DNA from: Acidobacteria bacterium AB60
GTDB taxonomy: Bacteria; Acidobacteriota; Terriglobia; Terriglobales; Acidobacteriaceae
Assembly: GCA_008682415.1 (NCBI GenBank)
Contig: VANK01000003.1
Coordinates: 186,001-250,000 of the forward strand
DNA length: 64,000 bases
Reading direction: 5' to 3'
The position numbers and the translations under genes were made by a program. Positions within the stretch are counted from its first letter, which is position 1. Every line of letters begins with the position of its first letter. Positions 2,579 through 25,620 of the stretch are shown piece by piece. Below the pieces are notes generated by a model. That model saw only the letters and a list, made by a program, of their open reading frames with translations, was not told the origin of the DNA and ran no database searches.

Positions 2579-3022
2579 TTACAGCTTAATTCGTGGATCG
2601 AAGGGATACGCGATTGCTTCAACGATCCGAAATTTGGCTGCATCCGGATGGGAGGGATTGAACAGATAGTTCATCGTTTCTGGCACAATGACGCTCGGAA
2701 CACGGAGGAGGACGCTATCGTTCCGTTCCAGCCACGCTGATCCAAGATCGCGCGTCACTTCAAGCCGCGCATGCCAGTCATCCGGCAGCTCGTCCGTTCT
2801 GACCGAGGGAACGTCGATCTCAGGTCCCTCGATTTTTAGCAGAGTAAATTCAGGTGGTACATCGTTTGCGCTAGTATGTACGCACACTTCGAGCAGAGAC
2901 GAAGCTGGACTATCGGAGAAATAGACGATTGCGCGACCTGCGTAGTGCCATCGTCCGGAAGCCCGGAGCCCACCAGTTCCAGTCAAATCACGATGCCGGC
3001 TGATCCGCCAGAAGACCATCAA
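2579..3022 (-). CDS. RES-domain toxin
   Basis: A 147-residue RES-family protein, the toxin half of a type II toxin-antitoxin pair. Known RES toxins (ParT, MbcT, Res) act on NAD+ or ADP-ribosylate a target. The sequence opens with WRISRH, followed by a GRWHYAG segment and SSLLEVCVH, the pattern of conserved Arg, Tyr and Glu residues seen in RES proteins. The length is normal for the family. The ATG overlaps the antitoxin stop by four bases (ATGA), so translation of the two is coupled. Function is assigned with good confidence; the exact biochemistry (NAD+ hydrolysis or ADP-ribosylation) is not decided by sequence. Confidence 0.85.
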   Translation of the reverse strand: MMVFWRISRHRDLTGTGGLRASGRWHYAGRAIVYFSDSPASSLLEVCVHTSANDVPPEFTLLKIEGPEIDVPSVRTDELPDDWHARLEVTRDLGSAWLERNDSVLLRVPSVIVPETMNYLFNPSHPDAAKFRIVEAIAYPFDPRIKL

Positions 3023-3438
3023 ACGAACATGCCTTCATCAATTTGGATCAGAAGCTCCTCCACGATTCGGCTGCCGGTGTCTGTTTGGAGAAGCGAGAGG
3101 GGTGTTCGTCCATCGAGGCGCATATGCGGTTTTCGTAGCCAAGCCAAAGCGCGTTCCCGGCTTCCGTAGACCATTTCCGCGAGTGACAATACCCGAATGA
3201 CGCGCAATACACGATCCGACTCCTCAACCGTCAGCTTTTCCCGCCGAGAGCGGCGATGCTGGAGGGTTCGCGACGGGATGATTACGGCGTCAATTTCCGC
3301 CCGCTCCAAACCAAGAGCGACGAGCCGCTTGATGATCGAAGGCGCCAGCCGACCCTCAACGATTCGAAGGATCTCGCCTTCTGTGGTGGGAGGCTGGAGG
3401 CCAAGCCAGTTGCCGATTTGCAGATTCGCGGCGTTCAT
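3019..3438 (-). CDS. Xre/MbcA/ParS-type antitoxin
   Basis: The partner of the RES toxin, with a C-terminal DUF2384 (MbcA/ParS/Xre toxin-binding) domain. The end reads ALAWLRKPHMRLDGRTPLSL then a Glu-rich helix, typical of this domain. The N-terminal half is a Xre-like helix-turn-helix used for autoregulation. The open frame extends to 3543, but the ATG at 3438 (MNAANLQI) is preferred. It has AGGTG just upstream and lies immediately after a 12-bp-arm palindrome that would otherwise fall inside the gene. From that start the protein is 139 residues. It is the first gene of the two-gene operon. Confidence 0.82.
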   Translation of the reverse strand: MNAANLQIGNWLGLQPPTTEGEILRIVEGRLAPSIIKRLVALGLERAEIDAVIIPSRTLQHRRSRREKLTVEESDRVLRVIRVLSLAEMVYGSRERALAWLRKPHMRLDGRTPLSLLQTDTGSRIVEELLIQIDEGMFV

Positions 3439-3443
3439 ATCAC

Positions 3444-3478
3444 CTACATTATGCCACACGCATTGCGGCATAGTGTAG
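3444..3478. promoter_or_regulatory. Palindromic operator of the Xre-RES operon
   Basis: Arms 3444-3455 and 3467-3478 are 12-bp inverted repeats with one mismatch (CTACAyTATGCC) around an 11-bp spacer. The palindrome ends six bases before the chosen antitoxin ATG, where an autorepressor would bind. Its position also supports the 3438 start. Confidence 0.6.
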
Positions 3479-3550
3479 GGCCTAGCTAAACCGCGCTTTG
3501 ATGAGATCCGAAGTGGAGGTTTCCCCGATGAATCCATTGCCACCGCTAGC

Positions 3551-6322
3551 TCACGAACTGATTACTTCCACGTACCCTACCAAATCGGCAGCATAGCTCC
3601 CGTCGCCATATGCCCCGCCCTTGTGCTTCAGCTCTCTCTCCAAAGTCGGCTCCAGAACCCGCTTAAACAGCTTGAGTCGTTCCTCTGGCCCCAGGATTGG
3701 AGCGGCAGCAGGTGCCCGCAAATAATGCTGGGCTTGACGCTCGACCGACGGCACTCGTGTGCCGTCCCGCTTTACTGCGATCGGCTGAATCACCATCTTG
3801 CGCTCTCCTCTACCGGCGGATAGTTCTACCAACCAGAGCGACAGCAGTACTGAATCCTCCACATCCACCGAGACCACAATTCCGACTTCCTCGGGGGGCA
3901 CACTACGCCACCGGCCGAGCTCCTCTTGCAGTAGTGGATGATCCAACCCCATCAATTCGACATCATCGCTGTTTGTAGCGGTGTCTCGATTCAATGTGAA
4001 CCTGACGCGGCGGGCGTTGTCAGGTCGCAATAAGTCGTAGGTTTCGTCATCAACCATTACAAGTTTCTGCTGTTGTTCCGAAACCGCTGCAGAAAAAAAC
4101 TGCACCAATCGCTCCAGGCTCGATGACACGTCCGAGAACGGCTTATAGTCATCGAGGCTGAAACCATCGAGGTCCTGAAACAAATCGCATACAACTCGCC
4201 GAGCTTCGCGTGAATTTGATAGCGCGGCTTCGAGTTCGACTCGGGTTCGTTTTAGCTCTGGGTCAGACAACGCCTCTTGGTAAAGACGATCGTAATTGAG
4301 ACGCTCCGATAATTGACCGAGGATCTGCGCCCGAAGATCTTCCGCTATGTTCCCTTCATCATCCACTTTGCCGACGGTTCGCGCGATTTCGTTGAGTTTT
4401 TCATCCAGCAAAAGAAAAATGCGGCCCTCTATGGTGTCCGATAGCACCAGGTTGTAGACCTGAGCTGTGTGGTTCTGGCCATAACGGTGAATACGTCCGA
4501 TTCGCTGCTCAATATCCATCGGGTTCCATGGCAAATCGAAGTTAAACAGGATTCGGGCGAATTGCAGGTTGATGCCCTCGCGACCTGCCGCCGTGCAAAC
4601 GAGGACACGTGGACCCTCCTTTTGACGAAACCGGCGCTCGGCCGCCAACTTGGAACCGTGGTCGCCTCCCCGCAGGACCACAACACCTTGGCCCGGGAAT
4701 GTTAGCTCAATCTCGCGCGCAATCGAATCCACCGTTCCCAAGTAAGTCGCGAATATTACAATCTTTTCGTTCGGATTCTGTCTCCACAAAACGCCAAGGC
4801 CATCTAGCAGTTTCTGCACCTTAGTTTCACGCTGTTCTGGGAAGATTTTCAGAAGATCGCGGATTCGCAGGCGCTCCTCGGGAAGATGGATATTGACTGC
4901 TGCCGCTGCAGCCTCTTCCGCGTGGGTCGCTGAATATTCACTACCGTACGGATCGGACGCCATTTCCAATTCTTCTTCATCGAGCTTTTTGACGAGGCGA
5001 TACTTAAGATCAGCGAGCACACGGTCCACCTCGCTGCGCCCGACGCCATCTCGAGCAAACCCAAATTCCTCATGGATCAGTTCACGGGCCTCCTGAATCA
5101 GCCGTTCGCGACCTTCGATGTCCAACTCTTTGTCGTGAAGGAGCGCCTCATGCAACGTCAGCATCAGCAGGCGACGTTTTAGTGTTCTGCGCACAGCTGC
5201 GAAGCTGGAAGCTGCGATCTTTTGAAAGATCGCCATCAAGAAACCCAGAGCCCGTCCCTGGTTGCCCTGACGGCGAGCGAGATCGAACCCTTCTTCCAGG
5301 TACTCCTTTAATTTCCCGTAGAAAAGCCTCTCTTCCTGGTTCATCAGGAATGATTCGGTATGGACCCAGCGACGAGCAAATAGAGCTGAGCCGTCTGGTT
5401 GGCAGGCATCCGCCTTTGTGCGCCGGTACATCACGGTATTCAAACGATGGCGATTCTCGACCATGTCCTCTGGACTGTTAAACAATGTTGGGTTCAGCAA
5501 CTGGATCAACATCCAGAATTGGAAATGATTACCCTGATGAGGAGTAGCAGACAACAGTAACAAATCTCGCGCGTGATCGCGCAGAGCCTCAGCCAGCTTA
5601 TAGTTTTCTGTTTTTCTCACCTTCTTACCAGCACGAAAGGCCGTCAGGTGATGGGCTTCATCGAACACTACCAAGTCCCAACGCGGCGCTTCGAGCAGAC
5701 GCCTGATGCGCGCTGGGCGCTTCAGCGTATCGATACTGGCAATCAAGCGATCATGCTTGGCAAAGGCATTCGTTTTCCGGTCAGTGATATCACCTTCAGA
5801 GCCGAAGACCTCAAAACCAAGGTTGAATACCTCGTTGAGTTCACGGTGCCAGTTGTTTACAAGACCCGCAGGAACCACCATGAGTGCCCTGTTCAATTCG
5901 CCACGACTGGCAAGCTCGCGCAGGATCAGCGCCGTCTCAATAGTCTTGCCAAGCCCCACTTCATCGGCGATCAAATAACGGCGGGGAGAAGCAGTTGCAA
6001 TACGGTGCGTTAATACGACTTGATGGGGCAGCAGGTCAATTTTCGCCGAAGTTAGCGCAGACGCACTCTCCATGATAGGCAACGCATGGGCCTCATATGA
6101 AAGCCATGCCTTCCGCGAACGTTCCGCACCGCCAGCAACTGCTCGCAGCATACGCTCCGCGCGGGAAAGTTCGCGGCGGACCGACGCTGTTGGTACGCGA
6201 CGTTCACCGACACCGAAGAACGCGCGAATGTAGCCATCTCGGCTCGGCTCAAGGACGACTCCTTGGCCGAACTCATGATGTGCGATCCGCTCACCGGGCT
6301 GAAGTTGGGCCTCTGCTTCCAC
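3551..6322 (-). CDS. SNF2-family helicase (BrxHII/DrmD-like)
   Basis: A 923-residue SNF2/HepA-type DNA translocase and last gene of the BREX-like operon. From the GTG at 6322, Walker A (ADEVGLGKTIE) is near residues 119-129, the DEAH box (VVFDEAHH) near 218-225, and motif III is LLLLSATPHQG. The C-terminal lobe carries GREGINLQ and QRIGRIHRYGQ, the motif VI arginine fingers. The open frame reaches 6466, but GTG 6322 has AGAAGG six bases upstream and begins 10 bp after the stop of the preceding gene, so the longer form is unlikely. In BREX type 3 and DISARM a helicase of this class accompanies a methylase. No DISARM drmA/B/C gene is present, and the PglZ next door argues for BREX. Confidence 0.85.
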   Translation of the reverse strand: MEAEAQLQPGERIAHHEFGQGVVLEPSRDGYIRAFFGVGERRVPTASVRRELSRAERMLRAVAGGAERSRKAWLSYEAHALPIMESASALTSAKIDLLPHQVVLTHRIATASPRRYLIADEVGLGKTIETALILRELASRGELNRALMVVPAGLVNNWHRELNEVFNLGFEVFGSEGDITDRKTNAFAKHDRLIASIDTLKRPARIRRLLEAPRWDLVVFDEAHHLTAFRAGKKVRKTENYKLAEALRDHARDLLLLSATPHQGNHFQFWMLIQLLNPTLFNSPEDMVENRHRLNTVMYRRTKADACQPDGSALFARRWVHTESFLMNQEERLFYGKLKEYLEEGFDLARRQGNQGRALGFLMAIFQKIAASSFAAVRRTLKRRLLMLTLHEALLHDKELDIEGRERLIQEARELIHEEFGFARDGVGRSEVDRVLADLKYRLVKKLDEEELEMASDPYGSEYSATHAEEAAAAAVNIHLPEERLRIRDLLKIFPEQRETKVQKLLDGLGVLWRQNPNEKIVIFATYLGTVDSIAREIELTFPGQGVVVLRGGDHGSKLAAERRFRQKEGPRVLVCTAAGREGINLQFARILFNFDLPWNPMDIEQRIGRIHRYGQNHTAQVYNLVLSDTIEGRIFLLLDEKLNEIARTVGKVDDEGNIAEDLRAQILGQLSERLNYDRLYQEALSDPELKRTRVELEAALSNSREARRVVCDLFQDLDGFSLDDYKPFSDVSSSLERLVQFFSAAVSEQQQKLVMVDDETYDLLRPDNARRVRFTLNRDTATNSDDVELMGLDHPLLQEELGRWRSVPPEEVGIVVSVDVEDSVLLSLWLVELSAGRGERKMVIQPIAVKRDGTRVPSVERQAQHYLRAPAAAPILGPEERLKLFKRVLEPTLERELKHKGGAYGDGSYAADLVGYVEVISS

Positions 6323-6332
6323 GCATCGCCTT

Positions 6333-6833
6333 CTAAGTAATCCGCAGATGAAACAACCCGGCGGTCTCGCCGCCCCTCCGCAGGACGATCTCCTGCGGAT
6401 ACTCGTTCGCCTCACCCCACACGACGCGACCAAAGGCAAGGAGGCTTTCTCCGTGCGGCACCGCACAGCGCCAAGAAATCGAATCCGTAGCGGGGTTCAG
6501 CCTAATGCGATTCTTCCCAGCTGGTAGCCAGAAAATCAGCGCAGCTTCACCCTCGAAGTAGGACTGGAATGACAGAATTGCATCCTTCACCGCGTTGCCA
6601 AGCCACGTCTCAGCGTCCGCTGGATTCAGCAGGTCGAGCCCACCTTCAAGGCCTGCAACAACGAGCGTTTGATTGTCGTTGCTCGGAAGATCATTCGGCC
6701 AGCGTCCCACCGCACGCAGCAGCTGGCGCATGCTCCAGACCTCATTCGCGACACAGACCTGATTGCGGGCCTCTTCATCCCAGATCCAGCTTGTGCCGTG
6801 CCGCCTCCACACCGTGTCGAGCAATTGCCTCAT
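6333..6833 (-). CDS. Unrecognised 166-residue protein of the BREX-like operon
   Basis: I do not recognise the family. The ATG (MRQLLDTVWRRHG) overlaps the methylase stop as ATGA, so the gene belongs to the operon and is probably translationally coupled. The protein is soluble with no signal peptide or membrane segment. It has a mixed alpha/beta look, with several Trp residues and a segment ALIFWLPAGKNRIRLNP that resembles a beta-rich half. It could be a small accessory like BrxB/BrxF in other BREX types, but no similarity is claimed. It ends 10 bp before the helicase start. Confidence 0.75.
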   Translation of the reverse strand: MRQLLDTVWRRHGTSWIWDEEARNQVCVANEVWSMRQLLRAVGRWPNDLPSNDNQTLVVAGLEGGLDLLNPADAETWLGNAVKDAILSFQSYFEGEAALIFWLPAGKNRIRLNPATDSISWRCAVPHGESLLAFGRVVWGEANEYPQEIVLRRGGETAGLFHLRIT

Positions 6834-9800
6834 AGCTCGTATTCCTCGAACAATGATCCTTGCGCAGGTTTGCTTGCCAGAGTTCCAGCCCAGGCCGTGT
6901 AGATTGCAACCGCCCGAGAGGCCGCGTTGCGAGTCGCTTGGTCCGGCCCGTTGTTTTGGAACCATTCCAGAAGCGGCTTTAAGGCGATGTGTGGCTTGAA
7001 ATTCCCATTCCTCAGGGTGTCGGATGCGTTGATGCCACTGCTGTCCGCGCATGCACCGACCAGCACTAGAGCTTGGTCCAGATCGGATATGAGACGACGG
7101 CGATGCTTCCCAACCCACTCGCGGGCAAAATCGAGCGAATTGACGCGAGTGAAGACCTTGTTCTTTTCAGCGCACCAACCACGCTGCACAAAATCATCTG
7201 GAGTCGTGATCGACCCTTTCAGAAACTTCTGCAATTGGTCCCGTTTCAATTCTGTGGCGCGACCGAATGTGCGGAGAAATTGACGGGTCATCGGTTCGGC
7301 ATTTACCGGTGGCGGCTCCTTGCCTTTGTCGGCATCTTCATCAATTAATTGATTGATTCCAACGAGAGCATCCTTAACAGAGATTGTGCGCCCCTCGTCT
7401 ACATAGACCTTTCCGTAATGGCGCGAAAAATATTCCAGCGCCTTGCCTCGCCGAATCACTTGCAGGTCCGCGGCTGGCAACCCTTCCTTTGCGTGGTTCT
7501 CAAGCAACGCTTGCAATTGGCGGACTTCAGCCATCACCTCACGGCGCATGCGCCCCCAGCTTACCGGCTTCGGTTCTTCCGTCCGCTTTCGGCACACGTG
7601 GATAATGTCATACTCGATCAGCTGGGATCCAAATGTCCCCGGCTTCGCTCCTTCTCCTTTCGTTTCATCGGAACGAATTGGATATGTCGCTTCGAGGTAG
7701 AATCCCGCTTCGAACAACGACTCGAGCACAGCTATCCAAGGTTCATCTTCACTGTGATGAAATGTGAACGCAAGTATGCCACCAGGCTTTAGGACTCTCT
7801 TAGCTTCCCGCCAACATTGAGTGAGAAGGCGCTGATAAAAGCCATCCGGGTCTTCTGGTTCGCGCGCACGATTAGCGACCGCTTCCAATGACTTAGGCGT
7901 GTAATCAGGCTCAAAGCATTCGGGGTACTGTTCTTTGAGTACAAGACGCAGCCAAACATGGAAGAAATCCGCTAACTCGGAGTAGTGCAGCAATCCACCA
8001 AATGGCGGATCGGTAATGACCAAGTCAATACTTGCCTCACTGAGTTGCACGAGATCCGTGGAGGAGCCGCAGAAAGCTTCAGCGCCATTGACAGCGTCAC
8101 CAGGGTATACTTTTTCGCTCTTTCCGCTGATCTCCTCAGCGAGCAAAGCATCCCGACGTCTGATGTTTTCAACGCTAACAGCTTCCCAAGGCGACTTCGA
8201 CCATTCTCCACCCTTGAAAATCACTTCGAGCGTAGATGACCACGGGCCATAACCCATCGGCGGAAAAACGCCAACTTCTACTACGTTACTTTTGGGGTGG
8301 AAGTTGCTATTCGACATAGCTGGTGCAAGCTTGTCGTAGGTCATGTGCCAGAACGAAAACATGTTTTGGTTTCTTAAATAGTTCTGAAAGGCGCCAAGAA
8401 CATACTCTCGAACCGATGAGTCGTAGTTGCCAACAGCAGAAATGGCCTTCAGTAGAAGTGCGTGGCCCAACAACTGGCGAGGGTTGAACATCGTCCACCA
8501 GTGTGTATACCCATGATTTGGGATGCCACCATTGTTCATGTGAGTCATGAACCCGAATGGAATCTCTGATAGAGGCCAGTACCCTTTGAGATCATTCAAC
8601 TTACGCTCTTCCCATTCTTTGAGCGCGGCGTCGTACTGCCTTGCATGCAAATCGTCGAAAGTCGAGAAGAACCGGCCGCCATAAGGCTGGCCAGCGACAT
8701 CACGTTTCGGTGAATAGCTTTGTACGGCATACGCCGCCACAGGTCCGGTTTTCCCCGTGGCCTTGACGGTTGTCAGCACATCTTGCACCGTGCCGCATCT
8801 ACCGCAAGCATAATGTGACTTCTTTGGCACCGTTCCGAGTTCAGACTTGAAGATCTTGCCCGATTCTGGATCGGTAACGTCTTCTGGCAAAGTTCCACGC
8901 ACTTCCAAAAGACGAATGGCTTCTGCTCTAAGCCGATCCCAACGAACGGTCGAGGCCACGTCGTCTTGAGCTGACCCTCCATAGGGTTGACCCAGAGCAT
9001 CCTCTTTCGGCGCTCCCGAAAGCCACTGGGGATGAACTAGCAGACTGAGCTCGATTTTCTTACTTTTCTTCTTTCCTAACACTTCTCCGACGCCGATTGT
9101 CTCGACATGACCACACAGCGGGCAATGAATTTCGCCCGTTTGACCAAGGACCGAATACGGATGCTCATCCGGTGCTACGTAGAGCGGGACGTCGGGTGCC
9201 ATGCGTGCTTCACTTTCTTCAATGTGAAAATGACCTCTGCATTTGTGACACTGACGATCCCAATACTTGACGCTTAATGTCTTAATTGCCATCACCGGAC
9301 TAGTCATAATTGGCGTTCGATGGCCGCACCCGGTGACCTGACATGGCCCGTGCTTTGCCCAGAATGTGTAAACAATCTCTGGACCTTGATACTTGTAGTC
9401 CTGGCGCTGTTCACCCGAAATGGAAAGAGGGTCAAACTCCGCAGGCATCTCTTTGCCCGTTGGGATGTGCGTCCAGACTCCTTTCTCGCCATTAGGACCG
9501 TCGCAGTAGTAGTACGGGATCATCTGAGGTTTTACTTCAGCCTCGATATCGGCGAGGAGCCGTCTCACTTCGTCGAGATCAACGTTGGCCAGCTCCTGCT
9601 TGACTACGAACCATGCCACTGGATTAAGGTCGTTGCCGGTCATCTGCATCCCGAGCCGAGAGCCCTCAACCAAGGTGGTACCGCCCCCCATGAAAATGTC
9701 CGCAACTCTAAGGTGCTTGAATGCCCCCTTTTTCTGATGATTCGAGTAGTAATTGTCCCAAACCAGCCGAGCGGTTTGAGAAGTGTCACCAGGGGCCTTG

Positions 9801-10054
9801 GTCGCGGCAGCGATGAGCATGGATCGAAACACACTCGAGCGACGTCGGGCCCACCATTTTGACATCTGATAAATTGGCTTACCGGCATTGCCCTCAATTA
9901 CCGCAACCTGATTCACAGGCAGGATTGGGAAATCGACTTCCAAGCAACTCTTTGGCCGGTTCGGGTCGCCGAAATCCACCGTCTCCATTGCGACAGCCTT
10001 CCCAGCGCCAACTGCTTTCGCAACTTCCTGTGCGAGCACTTCTTTGGTTCCCAT
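6830..10054 (-). CDS. DUF1156 adenine-specific DNA methylase (PglX-I-like)
   Basis: A 1074-residue COG1743-type methylase. DUF1156 is at the N-terminus (KPIYQMSKWWARR near 59-71). The SAM-binding motif I is DIFMGGGTT at 119-127, followed by the acidic motif NDLNPVAW. The catalytic motif IV, DPPFGG, is at about residue 684. Between these two blocks sit four Cys pairs in zinc-ribbon-like settings (CHKC, CPLC, CGRC, and CQVTGC), as expected for this family. Its role would be to mark self DNA by N6-adenine methylation and to take part in exclusion of phage DNA. It follows pglZ by 11 bp and overlaps the next gene. BREX type 3 uses this methylase class (PglXI). Confidence 0.88.
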   Translation of the reverse strand: MGTKEVLAQEVAKAVGAGKAVAMETVDFGDPNRPKSCLEVDFPILPVNQVAVIEGNAGKPIYQMSKWWARRRSSVFRSMLIAAATKAPGDTSQTARLVWDNYYSNHQKKGAFKHLRVADIFMGGGTTLVEGSRLGMQMTGNDLNPVAWFVVKQELANVDLDEVRRLLADIEAEVKPQMIPYYYCDGPNGEKGVWTHIPTGKEMPAEFDPLSISGEQRQDYKYQGPEIVYTFWAKHGPCQVTGCGHRTPIMTSPVMAIKTLSVKYWDRQCHKCRGHFHIEESEARMAPDVPLYVAPDEHPYSVLGQTGEIHCPLCGHVETIGVGEVLGKKKSKKIELSLLVHPQWLSGAPKEDALGQPYGGSAQDDVASTVRWDRLRAEAIRLLEVRGTLPEDVTDPESGKIFKSELGTVPKKSHYACGRCGTVQDVLTTVKATGKTGPVAAYAVQSYSPKRDVAGQPYGGRFFSTFDDLHARQYDAALKEWEERKLNDLKGYWPLSEIPFGFMTHMNNGGIPNHGYTHWWTMFNPRQLLGHALLLKAISAVGNYDSSVREYVLGAFQNYLRNQNMFSFWHMTYDKLAPAMSNSNFHPKSNVVEVGVFPPMGYGPWSSTLEVIFKGGEWSKSPWEAVSVENIRRRDALLAEEISGKSEKVYPGDAVNGAEAFCGSSTDLVQLSEASIDLVITDPPFGGLLHYSELADFFHVWLRLVLKEQYPECFEPDYTPKSLEAVANRAREPEDPDGFYQRLLTQCWREAKRVLKPGGILAFTFHHSEDEPWIAVLESLFEAGFYLEATYPIRSDETKGEGAKPGTFGSQLIEYDIIHVCRKRTEEPKPVSWGRMRREVMAEVRQLQALLENHAKEGLPAADLQVIRRGKALEYFSRHYGKVYVDEGRTISVKDALVGINQLIDEDADKGKEPPPVNAEPMTRQFLRTFGRATELKRDQLQKFLKGSITTPDDFVQRGWCAEKNKVFTRVNSLDFAREWVGKHRRRLISDLDQALVLVGACADSSGINASDTLRNGNFKPHIALKPLLEWFQNNGPDQATRNAASRAVAIYTAWAGTLASKPAQGSLFEEYEL

Positions 10055-10065
10055 TCAACGTTTCC

Positions 10066-11055
10066 TTATTTCGTCAGTTCGATAAAGGGACATAGCACTT
10101 CGAGCAGAGAAAGGCCGCCGTGTGTCAGCGTTGGATAGCCTCCCTGATTCTTCCACTTCCAGCGACCCAAGGCGAGCAGGTGCGCCCCATGTGGCCCACT
10201 CACCTGTAAAGCAACAGGCGGCACAAATGGACCAGCATCTTTCACGCCACTGGTACACCGACCACTCGAAAATGCTTTCTTGAGAAACTGGCCTAATTCT
10301 CCCTCAGCATCTGGAAAGTATCCGGTCGCTGCATAACCGTGGTCGGAGGTAATCACCAAACGCCGACCGGTAGCCATGCGCTTCACAAAACTCCAGAACT
10401 CCTCGTGATTAAGCTGGCTCGCAGCATCCCGAGCTAACAGTGCGAGACCTTGGCCCGCGCCTGCGCCGTCGTGCACCTTGCTGTCAGGCCAGTGATGCCA
10501 GAAGACTTGGTGTGAAGCACCACTAATCAAAGCTTCGCAATCTTTCCAAGGCAGGTCGACGCTTTCCGTATGCGCAGGCTGCAGCTTATGCGCGGAGCCG
10601 CCACTGTTGTTCTGGAGTTGGCTACGGCTACCGAACCCTAGCGCTTGGGCGAACTCGTCCGTTTCACCGGGCATTTCTGAAGCGTTGGCGCTGACGTCGT
10701 GCACCGACAGTCCATGGTCTTGAGCCCCTTGCAGAAGCCACGGCAACTCACGCAGTGACAGGCCATCGAGGATCAGCACCGCTTTGGCGCTGAAGGGCTT
10801 GGCCCACCAATCGAGTAGCTTGGTGGAATTGCGCTCTACAGTTCCAGAGAAAGCTTGCCACAGATCCCAGCTACTCGATGACAGCAGCAGATCGAGATCG
10901 CCAATTTCCCGGTCGCGTTTGACCACCTCGTGGGGCACGCTGCCGAGACTCAACGGCCTTGATGAAATCTCGAGGACCTTTTTGATCGTCACCGACCATG
11001 CGTCGGCGATTGACCCCTTGGTGACAACATCCACCAGGCCGGAATCGAGCGGCAT
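10066..11055 (-). CDS. pglZ: Short PglZ-domain protein
   Basis: A 329-residue PglZ of the alkaline-phosphatase fold. The first metal-binding Asp is in LILDGLSLREL (D97), the second metal site is VITSDHGY near residue 237, and the end reads LTHGGLSLLEVLCPFIELTK, the classic PglZ C-terminus. Most BREX PglZ proteins have 700-900 residues, so this one is close to a bare catalytic domain. PglZ is the hallmark BREX gene, and some members have been shown to have nuclease activity. Start and stop overlap by one base (TGATG) with the ATPase gene, implying coupling. Confidence 0.87.
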   Translation of the reverse strand: MPLDSGLVDVVTKGSIADAWSVTIKKVLEISSRPLSLGSVPHEVVKRDREIGDLDLLLSSSSWDLWQAFSGTVERNSTKLLDWWAKPFSAKAVLILDGLSLRELPWLLQGAQDHGLSVHDVSANASEMPGETDEFAQALGFGSRSQLQNNSGGSAHKLQPAHTESVDLPWKDCEALISGASHQVFWHHWPDSKVHDGAGAGQGLALLARDAASQLNHEEFWSFVKRMATGRRLVITSDHGYAATGYFPDAEGELGQFLKKAFSSGRCTSGVKDAGPFVPPVALQVSGPHGAHLLALGRWKWKNQGGYPTLTHGGLSLLEVLCPFIELTK

Positions 11056-13805
11056 CAGTTGCCCTCCTTTTCGAGGCTCAATTCGAAGGTGAGTCCGTCC
11101 GGCAGCTTCTTGAGCAACTCCCTGAGTTGCGCTCCTGAAAGCTGCGCGCCGCTAGCCGCAGAGACTTTGATTGATACGTCGGATACCTGCGTGGCCGGAC
11201 CAATTCCCCAGCTTTCCAATTTGCCGACTAGGTTAAGCGGCGACGTGGATGGTGCATTGAGTGGAATGCGCGGCGTCGTTACCGGGGCAGGGGTGCTCCC
11301 TGCGTAAATGCTTCCCGGTGCAGAGGTAGAAGGTCCAGACAGCGGCAAGCCTCCTGCAGGTTGGGCAGGAGGTACGTGCCCGGAAAAGAGACCGCCATTC
11401 GCAGTGGCAGGCGGTATCGGACCGACCGGGATTGTTCCACCCGTGGCCGCCACAGCCGACGGCAACATCAGGAACACTTCGTCTAACTGCCGTCCTGTAA
11501 AGGAGAGCTTAGGCCGCATCCGTCGCCATGCTGTTTCTTCATCCTCGCCGGGATGCGATTGCAGATTCTCCATCCCCCGCAGGTTAATGGCTATTTGGCC
11601 GCGCGCACACAAGCGGAGAATGCGCTCTTTCATCGCGGTCTCACCCAGCCACGGGATGCAGTCTTGTCCAGCAGGTCGCGGTTCCTGCAGTTCGCGGAGC
11701 AGCTTGCCGAGAGACGAATTTGCAGCCGCAGCGGCGAGCACGAGTGATTCAAAGTCTTCCGGGACGAAAAGATCATTGACCAGAGACTCCTCTATGCTTT
11801 CCGGAATCTGCGCTCCTTGCTTCTTGAGAGTCTCAATACTGAAAACAGATTGGTTGGGATCAGCGAAATCCCAACGGTGGAGCACGGCAAAGCGATCAAA
11901 ACGCTTTTTGAGGTTCTCGCGCAGTGTTCCCTCGAACTCCTTGTGAAGCTTCCTGTAGTCGGGATTTTGGTTGCTCCACTCCTGGGCCTTCATTTCCGCA
12001 CGAGCGAGGATCAGCAACTCGCGATCTAGAAAGGCGTTCGTCGATCCCGATTTTGGCAACAGGAAGCGAATGGCGTTTCGCCGCTTTTGAAGATGGTCTT
12101 TAAGCCAGAGCCCGAGCCGCTGATTTAAATTTTCCGGTTCCTCCGGCAGCACCAGGATTGGCAAGCGGTCATCCCAGTGGTCCGGCTGCTCAGCTTCTTC
12201 GATCGACGACCACGGGTCGTTCAGCCAAGACTTCGGCAAAACGATCACCCGGAAGGCTTTCACAACCTCCTCTGTACCGCCTATTACATACCGAATTTGC
12301 TTTCCGAGTTGGGCTAAATCGGAACCATCTGGGAATAGTTTGTCGTTGCGGGCATAGGACATCAGCTTGGCCCGCGGGTTCTCTTCCTCCCGGAACACGA
12401 GCCGCGAGCCGTCCTGATGGATATTGAAGCTGTTCTCTTCAATCGTTGCTAATTCAACCTGAAAAGCGTTGTCATCGATGGGCGTGTTACGAGTGATGTC
12501 AACCTGCAACATCACCGGCTCTGCACCGGCCAGGTTGCCAACTGCAATAGAACGCAACCACAGGGCGCCAACGATCTCCTGCAAATGCGGCGCAACGCTG
12601 GCATGATCGGCAACTGCCTCTTCGACCGAAATAATGTTTTGCTGGGCTTTCGCACGCAACGAGCGATGATGTTCATTTGACACTGAATCCAGCAGGGCGC
12701 CGATGCCTGAGGCGTCGTCATCTAGGCGAAAGTCTGCTGCAGTGAGAAGCGGGATCGAGTTGCCGTGACTCTTATATAGGTTGGCGAGGATTCGAATCAG
12801 ATCGCGGGTTTCTTGCGCATCGGTTGCTATCAGCACCTGCTCTTCCAGCAACCGCAGAAGATGCGGTGCAAAGGGCCAGCACTCGATGAATTCAGTGCTT
12901 TTTCTGGCTTGCTCGATGGAGGGAACCGCTAGAAGCCTGAAGCACTCAGAAATATGAAGCTTGATCAGCGCTTCAATCTTCTCATTCGCAATTTGAAGAC
13001 GGTTGTCGAACAATCGATGGAGCAGCATTCGACGGCGATCTCGCTGGATTCGCTCCGGATTCCCTCCACTCTTGAAATCGATCGCGACCGGGTTAACGCG
13101 ATGCACTTGCTGGTATGCATCGCTCTCACCATTACGAACTGAGACCACAAGGACCAGCAGCTCCGGCCTTTCGCTCGCAATCTCCGAGAGAATTTGGATG
13201 AAATTGAACGCCCATTGCTTCCAGGGATACTGCTTGGTGTTTGTTAATCCGTCGTACCACGTCTGGAATTCGTCCAGCAACAACATGGTGGGCTCTTTTT
13301 CAAATAGCTCGATCATGAGCTTGTCGGAAGGCACATCCGTCTTAGCGGCACCCATTCCCTCCCACTTGCCTTTAATGTAGCTGCCAGATGGATGGCGATC
13401 GAACAATAGATCCCAAAGAAATTTGTAGCGCTGCCTATGGAGGCTCTCACCGATGACCAACATGCTGTCGCGCAGCGCAATTTCACCAATTCCTGGTTCA
13501 TTGAGCGTGGACGCCCAGGATTTCAGCCAGGACCTCGTTGCAGCCGGATCGCTTACGGCGTGGTGTAGCGCCGCGAGCAGGTGAGATTTGCCAATCCCCC
13601 GTTCGCCGATGACCGCCACTGGCCGTCCGTGATTCGGCCCCACGGCCTCAATTGCGCTAAGCAGGTCATGGGTAGGGTAGGTAATGTCCAGGAACTTCTC
13701 CGCCGTAATCTGAGTCGCGCCCGTTTTCGAATCGTTAGAGAGCTCGATCGCCGTACCTTTGAGGCGTTTGCCCCGAAATTCTTCCCGAAGAGTCAAGTCA
13801 AGCAT
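11055..13805 (-). CDS. BrxC/PglY-like AAA ATPase
   Basis: A 916-residue ATPase, first gene of the operon. Walker A is GERGIGKS at 67-74 and Walker B is MLLLDEFQ near 174-181. An N-terminal TYPTHDLL segment precedes the P-loop, as in BrxC/PglY and DUF499 proteins. A long proline- and serine-rich linker (about residues 780-860) leads to a small C-terminal domain ending LPDGLTFELSLE, a tail also seen in DUF499-type ATPases. In BREX the ATPase organises the complex on DNA. Assignment to BrxC rather than DUF499 is uncertain, because the two groups are distant relatives and the operon fits either. Confidence 0.75.
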   Translation of the reverse strand: MLDLTLREEFRGKRLKGTAIELSNDSKTGATQITAEKFLDITYPTHDLLSAIEAVGPNHGRPVAVIGERGIGKSHLLAALHHAVSDPAATRSWLKSWASTLNEPGIGEIALRDSMLVIGESLHRQRYKFLWDLLFDRHPSGSYIKGKWEGMGAAKTDVPSDKLMIELFEKEPTMLLLDEFQTWYDGLTNTKQYPWKQWAFNFIQILSEIASERPELLVLVVSVRNGESDAYQQVHRVNPVAIDFKSGGNPERIQRDRRRMLLHRLFDNRLQIANEKIEALIKLHISECFRLLAVPSIEQARKSTEFIECWPFAPHLLRLLEEQVLIATDAQETRDLIRILANLYKSHGNSIPLLTAADFRLDDDASGIGALLDSVSNEHHRSLRAKAQQNIISVEEAVADHASVAPHLQEIVGALWLRSIAVGNLAGAEPVMLQVDITRNTPIDDNAFQVELATIEENSFNIHQDGSRLVFREEENPRAKLMSYARNDKLFPDGSDLAQLGKQIRYVIGGTEEVVKAFRVIVLPKSWLNDPWSSIEEAEQPDHWDDRLPILVLPEEPENLNQRLGLWLKDHLQKRRNAIRFLLPKSGSTNAFLDRELLILARAEMKAQEWSNQNPDYRKLHKEFEGTLRENLKKRFDRFAVLHRWDFADPNQSVFSIETLKKQGAQIPESIEESLVNDLFVPEDFESLVLAAAAANSSLGKLLRELQEPRPAGQDCIPWLGETAMKERILRLCARGQIAINLRGMENLQSHPGEDEETAWRRMRPKLSFTGRQLDEVFLMLPSAVAATGGTIPVGPIPPATANGGLFSGHVPPAQPAGGLPLSGPSTSAPGSIYAGSTPAPVTTPRIPLNAPSTSPLNLVGKLESWGIGPATQVSDVSIKVSAASGAQLSGAQLRELLKKLPDGLTFELSLEKEGN

Positions 13806-14354: not shown

Positions 14355-15338
14355 ATGTCAGTCGCCGTCAGCATACAATCCGCAGCAAACACCACAACCC
14401 ACAACCAGCGCACCGCGCCGCACAGGAAAAATGCGGCGCATGGGAGCCGCAGCGAATCCCCTTACCAGCAACGAACTTCTCAAAGTGATAACCCCACGCA
14501 AGTTCTCATTAAGCAGGCCGTAGACTTTCTGATCCAGCAGCTTGAGGCGGGCAAAAGCGACACCTTGACTGCTTACCTGAATGCAATGGCCCGTTTCCAT
14601 TCCTATTCCTTCGGGAACATCTTGCAAATCGCCAGACAGCGCCCGACAGCTACGCGCGTGGCGGGCATCCGCACGTGGAACCAGATGGGCCGTTTCGTCA
14701 AGAAAGGTGAGAAGGGAATACAGATTCTCGCTCCCTTAATGGGCTATCGGCGCAGAGATACGGACAATACCGAAACCGAGCAGGGGCTGGAGTCCAAACC
14801 CCAATCTGTGCTAATCGGGTTCCGCGCCGTGTACGTGTTCGATGTGGCTCAGACGGAAGGTGCGGACCTGCCCGAGTTTGAGCACAGCATTACGGGTGAG
14901 GTGGGCGAGCACCGCGAGCGCCTGATCGATTTCCTTGCGCAGCAGAATATTGCCCTCGAATTCAACGAGAAGATTGCCCCCGCTCTTGGCGTCAGCTACG
15001 GCGGAAAGATCGCCCTGCTACCTGGACAATCAAAGGCTGAGGAATTCGTGAGTTTGGTTCACGAGACCGCGCACGAGCTTTTACACAAGGCTGAGCGCCG
15101 CACGATGACGACTCAGACCGTGCGCGAGACCGAAGCCGAGGCCGTTGCGTTCATCGTGGGCCAAGCGGTCGGCTTGGAGATGGGGAACGCTTCAAGCGAC
15201 TACATCCAGATGTACGCCGGTAACGCAACGCTTCTGGCCGAAAGTCTCGAAGTCATCCAGCGCACCGCTTCCACCATCCTCCGGGCAATCCGCCCGGAGG
15301 AGGCGTCCTCAGCCGAAGTATTACCAGCAGCAAATTAA
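14355..15338 (+). CDS. ArdC-like antirestriction protein (ssDNA-binding plus zincin)
   Basis: A 327-residue protein of the ArdC type, made of an N-terminal ssDNA-binding domain (DUF1738; AVDFLIQQLEAGK onward) and a C-terminal zincin-like metallopeptidase domain. The zinc motif HExxH is in LVHETAHELLHK near residue 240, with a later Glu in TEAEAVAFIVG. ArdC proteins enter the recipient during conjugation and protect incoming DNA from restriction. AGGAG at 14344-14348 sits six bases before the ATG. Together with parB, MobF and T4CP genes it indicates a conjugative or mobilisable ancestor. The first 50 residues are polar and low in complexity. Confidence 0.85.
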   Translation: MSVAVSIQSAANTTTHNQRTAPHRKNAAHGSRSESPYQQRTSQSDNPTQVLIKQAVDFLIQQLEAGKSDTLTAYLNAMARFHSYSFGNILQIARQRPTATRVAGIRTWNQMGRFVKKGEKGIQILAPLMGYRRRDTDNTETEQGLESKPQSVLIGFRAVYVFDVAQTEGADLPEFEHSITGEVGEHRERLIDFLAQQNIALEFNEKIAPALGVSYGGKIALLPGQSKAEEFVSLVHETAHELLHKAERRTMTTQTVRETEAEAVAFIVGQAVGLEMGNASSDYIQMYAGNATLLAESLEVIQRTASTILRAIRPEEASSAEVLPAAN

Positions 15339-15342
15339 CTCC

Positions 15343-15371
15343 ACGTTCTGAGCGGGCGGCGCTCAGAACGT
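15343..15371. repeat. Perfect 12-bp hairpin between ardC and parB
   Basis: ACGTTCTGAGCG (15343-15354) and its exact inverse (15360-15371) enclose a 5-base loop. It starts four bases after the ardC stop. No U-run follows, so it is a processing, attenuation or binding site rather than a clear terminator. Confidence 0.5.
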
Positions 15372-15417
15372 GCCCGCTCTCCAATTCACCTCGAACACAT
15401 GAATAGGAGTAATCGCC

Positions 15418-16269
15418 ATGACAGCTACTGTTGCAATGCAGTCCGAGTACCGCAATCTCCCGCTTCTCACGCTCACGGAATCACCAGCCAATCCGCGCCG
15501 GACGTTTGACGAATCGGCGCTTTGCGAATTGGCCGAGTCCATCCGAACCCAGGGCGTGCTCTCGCCGCTCTTGGTCCGGCCAAAGGGCCAGAGTTACGAA
15601 ATCGTAGCGGGCGCGCGGCGCTATCGAGCCGCGCAACTCGCTGGACTCGATTCCGTTCCCGTGCGCATCGTTGAACTCACCGATGCGCAGGCCCTTGAAA
15701 CTAGCATCGTCGAAAACCTGCAACGGCGCGATGTTCATCCGCTGGACGAAGCGACCGGTTACGTCTCGCTCTTGCACCTTGATTACAGCGTGGAGCAGAT
15801 CGCGGCCAAATGCGGCAAATCACCTTCGTATGTCGCCGCACGCGCCCGCTTGGCGGAGCTTGCGCCCACAATCGTCGAGGCATTCGCCAAGGATGAGATT
15901 GGCGTTGGACACGCTCTCTTGCTTGCCAAACTGCAGGCCGAACAACAGGAGGAAGGACTCGCCGCCTGCTATCAGGAGACGTACTCGAATGGCGGTAAGC
16001 CAAAACGTATCCTCCTCCCGGTCCGGCACCTCCAGCAGTGGATTGAGCACAACATTCTGCTAGAGCTTGCCACCGCGTCTTTCTCGAAAGAGGACGCACA
16101 GCTTGTGCCGGAAGCGGGTTCCTGCATTCAGTGCCCAAAGCGCACCGGTCACAATACTCTGCTATTCGCTGAAATCGGAGCGAACCAGCCCGATTCATGT
16201 ATGTTATGTGGAATCTGGGCAATTTCAAGTCTTTTCCGCTGGCTCCGCGTCGTCACCCCGTCGGTGTGA
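15418..16269 (+). CDS. ParB-like protein, N-terminal part, cut by transposon
   Basis: The first 262 codons (15418-16203) are a ParB/Spo0J-type protein. The ParB/Srx nuclease-fold domain reads SPANPRRTFDESAL, and the CTP-binding motif is GARRYRAAQ followed by ENLQRRDVHPLDEA. Next comes an HTH region (SVEQIAAKCGKSPSYVAAR). From 16204 the frame enters the inverted repeat of the inserted transposon and stops at 16269 after 21 foreign codons. The remaining half lies at 26481-27299 in the same frame. Such proteins serve plasmid or island partition and maintenance. The fragment keeps the CTP and DNA-binding parts but loses the C-terminal region, so it is probably non-functional. Confidence 0.87.
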   Translation: MTATVAMQSEYRNLPLLTLTESPANPRRTFDESALCELAESIRTQGVLSPLLVRPKGQSYEIVAGARRYRAAQLAGLDSVPVRIVELTDAQALETSIVENLQRRDVHPLDEATGYVSLLHLDYSVEQIAAKCGKSPSYVAARARLAELAPTIVEAFAKDEIGVGHALLLAKLQAEQQEEGLAACYQETYSNGGKPKRILLPVRHLQQWIEHNILLELATASFSKEDAQLVPEAGSCIQCPKRTGHNTLLFAEIGANQPDSCMLCGIWAISSLFRWLRVVTPSV

Positions 16270-16273
16270 GACG
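16204..16273 (+). repeat. Left terminal inverted repeat
   Basis: This 70-bp repeat matches the inverse of 26411-26480 with one substitution (C/T) and two compensating single-T length differences. It begins directly after codon 262 of parB. Confidence 0.88.
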
Positions 16274-16299
16274 GGCGCATCCACACGTCTGTTCTTATG

Positions 16300-16319
16300 G
16301 AACCTCCAACAGGAGGTTC
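16300..16319 (+). promoter_or_regulatory. Hairpin hiding the recombinase ribosome binding site
   Basis: GAACCTCC (16300-16307) pairs perfectly with GGAGGTTC (16312-16319) across an AACA loop. The right arm contains the only good Shine-Dalgarno sequence before the TTG start at 16322. The hairpin would mask it in the mRNA and keep transposase expression low. Confidence 0.55.
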
Positions 16320-16321
16320 AT

Positions 16322-17317
16322 TTGTCTTGTGACTTCGTAGTTCACCCTCTCAAGTGGGATTGCTGTCCGCTCGTTGCATCCGATCCTCACGCCCGCGCTT
16401 GGCTTACTCTCCAGTCTCATCGTGGATTGTCTGGTAACACCCTCGGCGCATACTCACGAGGCCTGGAACGCTACTTCGGCTTCCTGATTCAACACCATTT
16501 ATCGAACATTTCGGTGACCCGCACCGAGGTCGGTTTTTTTCTGGCCGGTTTACAGAGTAATGGTGCCCGCCTCTCGAACGCCACCATCCACCAGCTTCTA
16601 ACGGTGGTGCGTCTGTTCCATGCATATCTGATGGAAGAAGGTGTGCGCGTCAACAACCCGGCAGCCCACAGTCACACAGGTAGACCGCTGATTGCGCGGC
16701 ATCACAAGCTGCCGTGGATTCCGAACGAGGACGACTGGCACTCGTTTCTTGCCGCGGCGCGGCAGGAGTCGATCCGCAACCGCGTCATGCTGGCGTTCGC
16801 TTATGATGCCGGACTGCGGCGTGAGGAACTCTGCAGCCTCCGTAGCGACGACATCGATCCATCGCGTCGCATGCTCAGGATACGGGCGGAGACCACCAAG
16901 GGACGCCGTGATCGCATCGTTCCATATTCCGCCGCCAGCAGTGAGCTGCTTCACCGTTATCTCCAGCATCGGCGCACTCTGGCACAGAAGCGCGGGTCTC
17001 TCTTTCTCTCGGAGTCCCGCCGCAACTATGCTGAACCAATCTCCATCTGGAGCTGGTCGAAGGCTATTCTTGGAGTGGCTCGGCGCGCTCATGTGGAACA
17101 CTTCAGTACCCACACACTTCGCCATCTCTGTCTGACTGACCTTGCGCGCGCTGGCTGGGACATCCACGAGATCGCCGCATTCGCCGGCCATCGCAGCATT
17201 CAGACCACTCTCCTCTATATCCACCTTAGCGGCCGTGACCTCTCCGCGAAGCTGGCGGCAGGCATGGCCCAGATTCATGCACGTCGAGTCCAGATGCTTG
17301 CGGAGATGAACATATGA
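16322..17317 (+). CDS. Transposon tyrosine recombinase A
   Basis: A 331-residue tyrosine recombinase. The N-terminal SAM-like core-binding domain (SGNTLGAYSRGLERYFGFL) is followed by the catalytic domain: Arg I in AYDAGLRREEL, HTLRHLCLTD for His/Arg II, and AGHRSIQTTLLYIHLS for His and the nucleophilic Tyr. All catalytic residues are present. The open frame extends left into parB, so the start must lie inside the element. TTG 16322 is chosen because AGGAGG is five bases upstream and no in-frame ATG is better. Its stop overlaps the next ATG (ATGA). It corresponds in position to TnpA of Tn554-like elements. Confidence 0.83.
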   Translation: MSCDFVVHPLKWDCCPLVASDPHARAWLTLQSHRGLSGNTLGAYSRGLERYFGFLIQHHLSNISVTRTEVGFFLAGLQSNGARLSNATIHQLLTVVRLFHAYLMEEGVRVNNPAAHSHTGRPLIARHHKLPWIPNEDDWHSFLAAARQESIRNRVMLAFAYDAGLRREELCSLRSDDIDPSRRMLRIRAETTKGRRDRIVPYSAASSELLHRYLQHRRTLAQKRGSLFLSESRRNYAEPISIWSWSKAILGVARRAHVEHFSTHTLRHLCLTDLARAGWDIHEIAAFAGHRSIQTTLLYIHLSGRDLSAKLAAGMAQIHARRVQMLAEMNI

Positions 17318-25500: not shown

Positions 25501-25620
25501 AACCCAAAGAGGACTAGTCACCCGGGAGCTCTCCCGCCCGGCCCCCGGCCGCTGTACCTTAATAACGGAGGCGCATCAGATAGCGCAAGCCACTATTACG
25601 TGATCTGGGCAAAGCCGTAG
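22543..25620 (+). CDS. RHS repeat protein, C-terminal part with BPSL0067-like toxin domain
   Basis: A continuation of the RHS protein: many YD repeats, then the RHS core end (LDFFGARYGTSTLGRWLTPD) and the self-cleavage motif NPISSIDPDGHD. After a glycine-rich linker (about residues 800-890) comes a variable C-terminal domain. It contains GDSQCVTACKHFATG, GTAIATFNRKGRYP and GSIIILDQWPANP, and ends with SHYYVIWAK. These match the BPSL0067 family, an NlpC/P60-like cysteine peptidase or amidase fold with a Cys after GxxQ and a late His. The likely role is a peptidoglycan-targeting effector used between cells. The start at 22543 is only where this frame opens; the real start is 20480. No secretion genes are visible nearby. 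Confidence 0.82.
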   Translation: MTYDGNLGVLTTAKDPNQKTTSYSYDTWGRITSVHYPNKCPNSSVSGETDYVYGDTVPSTIATTSAMCGVNSGASSAKVQTTVDGFSRAVRKALLTDPSGIVYVDTSYDSIGHVATVSNPYRSTADATYGSTSYSYDALGRITRITHPDNTNVSYYFYGAAVQLSDEGNGTRTTSRILQQDALGRLTSVCEVTSAQVQGGSSGDTTPAGCGQDISTTGFLTSYSYDPLSNLLAVTQGSLTRRSFQYDSLSRLTSAYNPEAGTTTYTYDGNNNVLTRTRPAPNQPSGGSSVAVATYAYDQLNRPRSIVYTDSYNSPSPGSYFDYDSANNAVFTTGGSLNPIGRLVDGYVKDSSGNYLAGAAFSYNEVGSPTSFAQCTQDDCSAGWNYTLSYAYDITGPVSSRQIASGSSNDYTLAYTYNGAGQLTTLASSWNDATHPGTLFSNGTYGPLGRLATDSLGSGEIESFAYDQRGRLGCLSSSKNGSALYSLSLSNANGQCSSFSGTGYAGNDDVLVAKDSINGNWTYTYDDFNRLISANASSGPFSGTPMAWTYDRFGNRWSQTSGSTGQSLSYTQGNNRMNAFNYDAAGNLTSDGTNSYIYDDENRIIKVNLGSGGTITYSYDAAGNRIRSNVGSTVEEYIYDIDGNQAGVMQPNGAMKRMEIFADGRHVGTYDIASNATYFSHRDWLGSERMRTTSAGTTFETCVNLPFGDGQQCSGGADISPMHFTSQLRDANANLDFFGARYGTSTLGRWLTPDWSNIVSPIPYGDLANPQALNLYSFTGNNPISSIDPDGHDEMAPEGDGGGGGDSDGGGGALALQREFTCTPCSWLRDFFEALGSGGGAGWGGFGGGLGGSNGGGLAAFARPFVQAQINSASTPAHLGPFSVPSDGPIRKEFDIDAIVRAEKVIGDSQCVTACKHFATGLANIPTWRWIQGPSVSTLTAADIGTAIATFNRKGRYPGGEDKNSGIYLGPGPVPGSIIILDQWPANPKRTSHPGALPPGPRPLYLNNGGASDSASHYYVIWAKP

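Follow-up and report, generated by a model that had tools for sequence, protein, structure and literature searches.

Within a 64,000-nucleotide stretch of Acidobacteria bacterium AB60 (contig VANK01000003.1, positions 186,001 to 250,000), hereafter the window, the minus-strand block 3551-13805 consists of five tightly packed open frames with no internal stops, encoding, in operon order, a DUF499 ATPase, PglZ, a methylase, a 166-aa protein and an SNF2 helicase. A sequence-only reading of this DNA had described five compact genes forming an operon akin to bacteriophage exclusion (BREX) systems. The open frames and their junctions agree with the coordinates and sizes that it gave, and the BREX likeness is borne out by component matches and by the fold of PglZ. 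The genes, and two junctions that proved variable in related loci, are as follows.

11055..13805, minus strand: DUF499 AAA+ ATPase, the BREX-Related (BR) type counterpart of BrxC, 916 aa (Pfam, motifs, ATPase tree).
10066..11055, minus strand: standalone PglZ, predicted to combine a helical linker with a nucleotide-pyrophosphatase-type core, likely a DNA nuclease or phosphodiesterase, 329 aa (fold, profile, motifs).
6830..10054, minus strand: putative DUF1156-type DNA methylase (N6-adenine by family), 1074 aa (Pfam, NCBIfam, PADLOC, motifs).
6333..6833, minus strand: 166-aa protein, probable iSTAND (BrxB/BrxF-like inactive P-loop subunit; position, size, weak P-loop resemblance).
3551..6322, minus strand: SNF2-family helicase of the BrxH/HmaA/DrmD kind, 923 aa (PADLOC, NCBIfam, Pfam; start by homology).
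10055..10065, no strand: PglZ-methylase junction, 11 bp in the window; 29 of 76 related loci exceed 250 bp here, with IetAS, SIR2-HerA or other inserts.
6323..6332, no strand: small gene-helicase junction, 10 bp in the window; 9 of 67 related loci exceed 250 bp here, eight of them holding HEC-01 and the ninth an AlbA_2-type protein.

The ATPase and PglZ genes overlap by 1 bp, 11 bp separate PglZ from the methylase, the methylase and small gene overlap by 4 bp, and the helicase follows after 10 bp; every core junction is empty of cargo, and the operon is an intact five-gene unit. At its longest, the helicase frame runs for 971 aa from 6466; its start is most likely the GTG at 6322 (923 aa), with which the annotated start of an Aminobacter homologue aligns. 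A promoter scan stayed at chance level (6 sites where 5.5 are expected), and 19 terminator-like sites were seen where 12.2 are expected; neither result is used as evidence.

The 329-aa protein yielded no Pfam match and weak tails at best (NF033449, E 0.012), and the Pfam PglZ model PF08665 was silent across the whole host genome although its controls rang. This silence could have sunk the assignment of the protein as PglZ, which was rescued by fold and profile searches. In a structure search with an AlphaFold2 model built from 37 sequences (pLDDT 77.6, predicted template-modelling score 0.81), PorX ranks first (E 7.4e-8) and the BREX PglZ 9zn5_B is recovered at E 2.3e-4, while VIA-align superposes the model on PorX at up to Z 17.9 over 261 residues (PorX range Z 16.8-17.9) and on 9zn5_B at Z 12.8 over 253 residues. 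The family profile, in turn, reaches the BREX PglZ 9nv3_C at E 4e-6, its sole match clear of noise; a designed protein (E 6e-4) scores better than PorX (E 0.0015), whose profile match is at chance level. The modelled fold is thus that of a PglZ. The motifs around D97, T132, D191/H195, D238-H239 and H312, which we take to be the metal and nucleophile set of nucleotide pyrophosphatase/phosphodiesterase enzymes, are conserved in 78-80 of the 80 homologues. Three observations temper this assignment: 9nv3_C superposes on the model at Z 9.1, level with general phosphodiesterases; stretches between residues 244 and 313, the region holding H312, are poorly resolved; and the threonine at the T132 position is not kept in L114, one of the haloarchaeal copies. 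All four haloarchaeal copies have glutamate at the H195 position, and the archaeal PglZ profile is homologous to the window family at E 4.5e-16. The window protein aligns to residues 383-749 of 9zn5_B and therefore corresponds to the linker plus the catalytic core, the N-terminal part of BREX PglZ being absent, in keeping with the near-bare catalytic domain recognized from sequence. A divergence that escapes Pfam might indicate a decayed, inactive operon, but with full-length frames throughout and all searched motifs intact we regard decay as scarcely credible.

The ATPase matches Pfam DUF499 above its cut-off (34.1 bits against 23), and its Walker A motif at residue 67 and LLLDEF motif at residue 175 are kept in 74 of 75 and 75 of 75 full-length homologues, respectively. 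We inferred a 16-row ATPase tree containing eight PglZ-associated DUF499 proteins (from the window, Aminobacter, Tenderia, Ensifer and four haloarchaea), together with six PglZ-less DUF499 proteins and two BREX type 3 ATPases, a small sample of our own. All eight PglZ-associated proteins lie on one side of a branch with support 97/94, and the six DUF499 proteins without PglZ and the two BREX type 3 ATPases, which come from the window's phylum, fall across it. A long branch (2.24) separates the window's clade from the haloarchaeal proteins, and a phmmer search with the window ATPase missed the BREX type 3 ATPase of two relatives in the phylum.

The methylase matches Pfam N6_N4_Mtase PF01555 (30.5 bits, cut-off 26.7) and, in NCBIfam, the DUF1156_antiphage model NF042963 (E 2.6e-25; 88.7 bits, far under the model cut-off of 1000); its match to Pfam DUF1156 falls under the cut-off (17.5 bits against 24). 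A large insert separates the motif FMGGGT (residue 121) from DPPF (residue 682) and carries eight cysteines in two clusters (238, 243, 269 and 272; 311, 314, 417 and 420). In the helicase, both SNF2 and Helicase_C were matched in Pfam, and no nuclease family appeared among the Pfam matches at E up to 1, a search that a divergent domain could escape. The PADLOC ranking is headed by a BrxHI/BrxHII model (E 2.9e-99), followed by HmaA (2.6e-91) and a model described as BrxHII (2.9e-79), with DrmD at 5.4e-75, so that by sequence the helicase is BrxH-like and without a Pfam-detectable nuclease. Several of these matches count against the assignment favoured below. The top PADLOC match of the methylase is HmaB (E 4.2e-32), ahead of a PglXI-like match (E 2.7e-22); for the helicase, the BrxHII-described model ranks only third, behind the BrxHI-described model and HmaA, and the top NCBIfam match is DrmD of the DISARM system (defence island system associated with restriction-modification), at 308 bits against a cut-off of 610. 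In a methylase tree, moreover, the PglZ-associated rows are split (3 changes), and the methylase gene consequently gives the grouping of the ATPase tree no confirmation. Searches of this kind against BREX, DISARM and Pgl families had been proposed from the sequence alone, and they returned DUF499, DUF1156_antiphage, BrxH, HmaA/HmaB and DrmD models; a BrxHII-type helicase had there been named as typical of BREX type 3, and of this label the BrxH likeness stands, while the BrxHII-described model leads neither ranking.

The 166-aa protein, listed as an unknown in the sequence-only reading, matches no family in Pfam, PADLOC or NCBIfam scans, and a Pfam scan of 37 relatives gave nothing better than E 0.043. 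Its AlphaFold2 model (pLDDT 90.8) retrieves nothing significant with Foldseek (best E 0.12; BrxB 9zll_E at rank 43, E 2.3) and no VIA-align match of Z 5 or higher, the best (Z 4.8) being mostly RecA, Rad51 and Hda P-loop proteins. The candidate P-loop stretch is without the Walker lysine. This absence, together with position and size, fits the published iSTAND subunit, and the protein is likely to be that subunit, in the BrxB/BrxF role. Arguing the other way, the weak P-loop resemblance could reflect a common fold; comparison with a BrxF profile of six sequences gave no homology (probability 0.3%); and similarity to the archaeal small gene is weak (E 0.0054 with one sequence and 0.034 with four; probabilities 7% and 1.5%).

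Taken together, these genes fit a system that has already been named. The Type-3 BR system was defined by Rakesh & Krishnan (Nucleic Acids Research 2026, gkag035; PMC12839542), whose text gives as its content a DUF499 ATPase, a DUF1156 methylase, a helicase of BrxHII layout (Tudor, degenerate nuclease and C-terminal alpha+beta) without nuclease, and a standalone active PglZ. According to the same text, PglZ is near-universal across 569 taxa, the iSTAND gene is present in 466 (82%) and a subset of the methylases carries two four-Cys zinc fingers; an RRM at the C-terminus of the ATPase and three HTH in the methylase are further features of the type. The window operon likewise has a DUF499 ATPase of the PglZ clade, a standalone PglZ, a DUF1156-type methylase with two four-Cys clusters in its insert, a small gene and a helicase without detected nuclease; it differs in that the 166-aa gene is only probably iSTAND and in that the helicase is BrxH-like, with at most a possible BrxHII layout. 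Judged on gene content, the operon is a Type-3 BR system and hence of an already described type. The sequence-only reading had proposed a minimal or new BREX subtype unless its parts belonged to one already named, and for gene content the Type-3 BR description in PMC12839542 is such a case.

A genuinely new minimal BREX subtype, derived from BREX type 3 by loss of BrxA, BrxB/BrxF and BrxL, would account for the PglZ, PglXI-like methylase (E 2.7e-22) and BrxH-like helicase that the window has in common with BREX type 3, and for the failure to find BrxL, BrxB, BrxF or BrxA in the host genome, although for BrxA the search controls were also silent. That none of these four genes is visible had been noted from the sequence; the genome-wide negative carries two reservations, the silent BrxA controls and a possible remote BrxB/BrxF relationship of the 166-aa protein. 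Yet the window has a DUF499 ATPase, not the BrxC/PglY-type ATPase of BREX, and this ATPase groups with archaeal PglZ-associated DUF499 proteins and away from the two BREX type 3 BrxC proteins, which its phmmer search missed; its PglZ is half the length of that of a BREX type 3 relative (329 against 673 aa in L123), and the identical gene set is in print. We therefore hold a new subtype to be very unlikely, and the type 3 likeness first noted is imprecise, the ATPase being a DUF499 protein apart from BrxC.

The related Hma (helicase-methylase-ATPase) system, in which HmaC is described as a DUF499 ATPase and which is itself counted among the DUF499-centred BR systems (PMC12839542), shares with the window an HmaA-like helicase (E 2.6e-91) and an HmaB-like methylase (E 4.2e-32). 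Plain Hma was rejected: the window operon has PglZ and the small gene, its ATPase, although of the same DUF499 kind as HmaC, has no match to PADLOC HmaC at E up to 1, and that ATPase groups outside the six PglZ-less DUF499 proteins. DISARM was also rejected; the helicase is DrmD-like, but none of the four non-helicase proteins has a DrmA, DrmB or DrmC match among the matches listed (for the methylase, the best 25 of 33).

We consider it probable that the locus is an intact Type-3 BR anti-phage operon. Its genes and their conserved order, the fold of PglZ, the intact motifs and the grouping of the ATPase are observed; each functional step that follows is proposed by analogy with BREX. The methylase would mark host DNA at a target site, its Cys-rich insert acting as the target-recognition domain, and the DUF499 ATPase would nucleate a complex that takes in PglZ and the 166-aa subunit, probably an inactive P-loop protein. 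The ATPase complex and the SNF2 translocase would then engage incoming unmarked DNA, with the helicase moving along or remodelling it, and PglZ would cut or nick that DNA. In type I BREX, as reported in the available text of PMC13326643, PglZ residues 1-98 bind BrxB, which bridges BrxC and PglZ; since the window PglZ is without this N-terminal module, its complex would have to be held together in a manner unlike that of BREX. The main rival to this scheme holds that PglZ is a signalling phosphodiesterase acting, like PorX, on cyclic or linear oligonucleotides and controlling the complex, with the helicase or a host nuclease doing the damage. The nearest solved structures are indeed those of PorX, one with pGpG bound, and the PorX PglZ cleaves oligonucleotides (PMC12839542). 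On the other hand, no recognisable cyclase lies among the five genes, the type I BREX PglZ is reported to be a nuclease that cuts DNA (PMC13326643), and the BR-3 helicase is without the fused nuclease of BR-1 and BR-2, for which PglZ is argued to substitute (PMC12839542), so that we judge a signalling role unlikely. The readings weighed here overlap, and the likelihoods attached to them need not sum to one.

A scan of the genome_contigs collection recovered 243 relatives, of which the best 80 (62-88% identity) were surveyed, a sample of close relatives as opposed to all Type-3 BR systems. The complete set of five genes occurs in 67 of the 80, in identical order in 67 of 67, which indicates that the operon is more than a chance arrangement and provides the conserved order for which a survey of other genomes had been suggested. 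Among the 13 loci without one or more genes, 11 reach a contig end; L083 and probably L010 are incomplete without one, about 1.1 kb still following the point, residue 705, where the L010 methylase match breaks off. Most of the 80 records are labelled Pseudomonadota, and many carrier genomes are metagenome bins, so that labels outside that phylum may be binning errors. Within the window's own phylum, PglZ was matched in 3 of 396 genomes: the window's, one with a short PglZ (353 aa) and one with a BREX type 3 PglZ.

More distantly, four haloarchaeal plasmids keep the window's order from the ATPase through PglZ and the methylase to the small gene; counting against full conservation of the operon, the helicase is not adjacent to the small gene in any of them (0 of 4). 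Three haloarchaeal relatives have an annotated DNA adenine methylase after the small gene, at the helicase position:

L008, 13888-14742: annotated DNA adenine methylase.
L111, 11141-11995: annotated DNA adenine methylase.
L112, 11210-12064: annotated DNA adenine methylase.

A Halorussus locus (L113, 7974-10619) encodes a DUF1156 methylase, and neither an ATPase nor a PglZ is annotated within 8 kb of it. Nine IMG/VR viral contigs (L090-L098) encode a PglZ relative (25-72% identity), accompanied by the small gene in at least five cases (L092-L095, L097). Copies were also observed on enterobacterial plasmids (L005, L009 and plasmid matches H107-H112 and H114-H132). The two viewed closely have a KPC-2 gene within about 5 kb and SIR2 and ATP-binding genes between PglZ and the methylase. 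Among 25 enterobacterial ATPase rows (from the best 40 of 56 records), 6 are full length, 1 starts from residue 79 and 18 start only from residue 214, so that many are without the Walker A region.

The junctions between core genes vary markedly across the 80 loci, with a bimodal distribution of gaps (100 bp or less, or more than 250 bp). The ATPase-PglZ gap is short in 78 of 80 loci and long in 2, one of which (L038) reflects a failed end alignment with no insert, whereas the PglZ-methylase gap is short in 47 of 76 and long in 29; the corresponding figures are 62 of 67 and 5 for the methylase-small gene gap, and 58 of 67 and 9 for the small gene-helicase gap. At least one gap exceeds 300 bp in 32 of the 67 complete operons. 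We scanned proteins from representative inserts with Pfam (20) and PADLOC (10) and typed cargo by similarity to 20 references. Three pairs were identified with PADLOC: SIR2 and HerA (E 3e-81 and 5e-224), IetA and IetS (5e-145 and 0), and HEC-01A and HEC-01B (3e-139 and 3e-73). Further cargo comprises a GmrSD/HEC-06 enzyme, a nucleotidyltransferase with HEPN, PemK and PIN toxins, AlbA_2 proteins (accompanied in one arrangement by a ParA-like ATPase) and the family-less frames unk158, unk195, unk197, unk307 and unk315. Proteins of 307, 312 and 315 aa lie between PglZ and the methylase in L052 (11000-11923), L051 (10990-11928) and L030 (11002-11949), respectively; the two scanned, those of L052 and L030, have no Pfam family, and all three are possible new cargo.

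Cargo placement within the operon is slot-specific. All 9 IetAS and all 7 SIR2-HerA insertions (counting a partial pair in L088) occupy the PglZ-methylase junction, and all 8 HEC-01 insertions occupy the small gene-helicase junction, a placement with a hypergeometric probability of 6e-8 that ignores relatedness and is descriptive only. Six loci with cargo relatives outside the core junctions were left out of these counts: L016, with an IetA-like match (72% of length); L043, L090, L091 and L094, with GmrSD-like matches; and L023, in which an IetA-IetS pair follows PglZ and the contig ends before any methylase. On a PglZ tree of 89 rows, including viral contigs and four rows without slot state, built by a quick method with the Shimodaira-Hasegawa-like approximate likelihood ratio test alone and with long rows that make some placements unsure, the state of the PglZ-methylase slot requires at least 20 changes, against a shuffled mean of 27.6. 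IetAS requires 7 changes for 9 rows (shuffled 8.7) and SIR2-HerA 6 for 7 (shuffled 6.8), and near neighbours such as L018 and L033, or L073 and L074, differ in cargo. Cargo thus changes repeatedly between close relatives; at the same time, slot states cluster beyond the shuffled expectation, and shared ancestry therefore accounts for part of the pattern.

The concept of 'guilt-by-embedding' and a set of Hma-embedded candidates were reportedly put forward in a 2024 preprint by Payne et al. The junctions of the window's relatives likewise hold PADLOC HEC-01 and HEC-06, but their hosts are PglZ-containing BR-3 operons, and the window has no cargo. Embedding itself is published, both as nucleases embedded in BREX and BR loci (PMC12839542) and as the embedding approach and Hma-embedded candidates of the preprint cited in PMC12988326. 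SIR2 and subtilisin are both absent from the main text of PMC12839542, and the slot-specific turnover of IetAS, SIR2-HerA and HEC-01 in PglZ-containing BR operons may be a new detail. From the placement and repeated change observed in relatives, we tentatively raise the possibility, itself doubtful, that the Type-3 BR operons of this clade form a modular chassis, the junctions of which, chiefly PglZ-methylase and small gene-helicase, each take their own families of complete second defence systems; by conjecture, these would be swapped time and again through recombination in the conserved genes on either side and co-expressed with the core as slot-matched backups, acting once a phage disables it.

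In the window, the operon is flanked by the following features.

2579-3543: type II toxin-antitoxin pair of the RES-Xre kind, immediately downstream of the helicase gene (RES NF049844, 135.8 bits, cut-off 110; Xre NF049845, 94 bits, cut-off 90).
14355-19761: a short way upstream of the operon, a protein with an ArdC-N domain, ParB and two integrase-family proteins.
22543-25620: RHS-repeat protein, 1025 aa.
27486-32017 (-): four tandem tyrosine recombinase frames (324, 414, 370 and 414 aa).
127-2004: radical SAM protein related to the tetraether lipid synthase Tes (E 2.5e-78, under the equivalog cut-off).

The gene content of 14355-19761 points to a mobile element or plasmid-like region, and we take the tandem recombinase frames to resemble recombinase-trio elements. 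The operon adjoins mobile-element genes and was probably acquired horizontally. This setting raises the alternative that the operon serves the maintenance or competition of its carrying element, for instance by plasmid exclusion, more than phage defence. The adjoining ArdC, ParB, integrases and RES-Xre pair are in line with such a role, as is the occurrence of relatives on plasmids and IMG/VR contigs; the PADLOC-listed defence systems at the junctions of those relatives speak instead for defence, and we find a role centred on the element quite unlikely.

As one more member of a system described in 2026, the window itself adds little to the Type-3 BR family. The survey that it led to, in turn, yields closely related operons that are empty and filled at a given junction, side by side, and such sets let one ask whether an embedded defence depends on its host operon or merely travels with it. 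The compact PglZ, without a BrxB-binding module, is likewise a convenient protein for asking whether PglZ alone cuts DNA.

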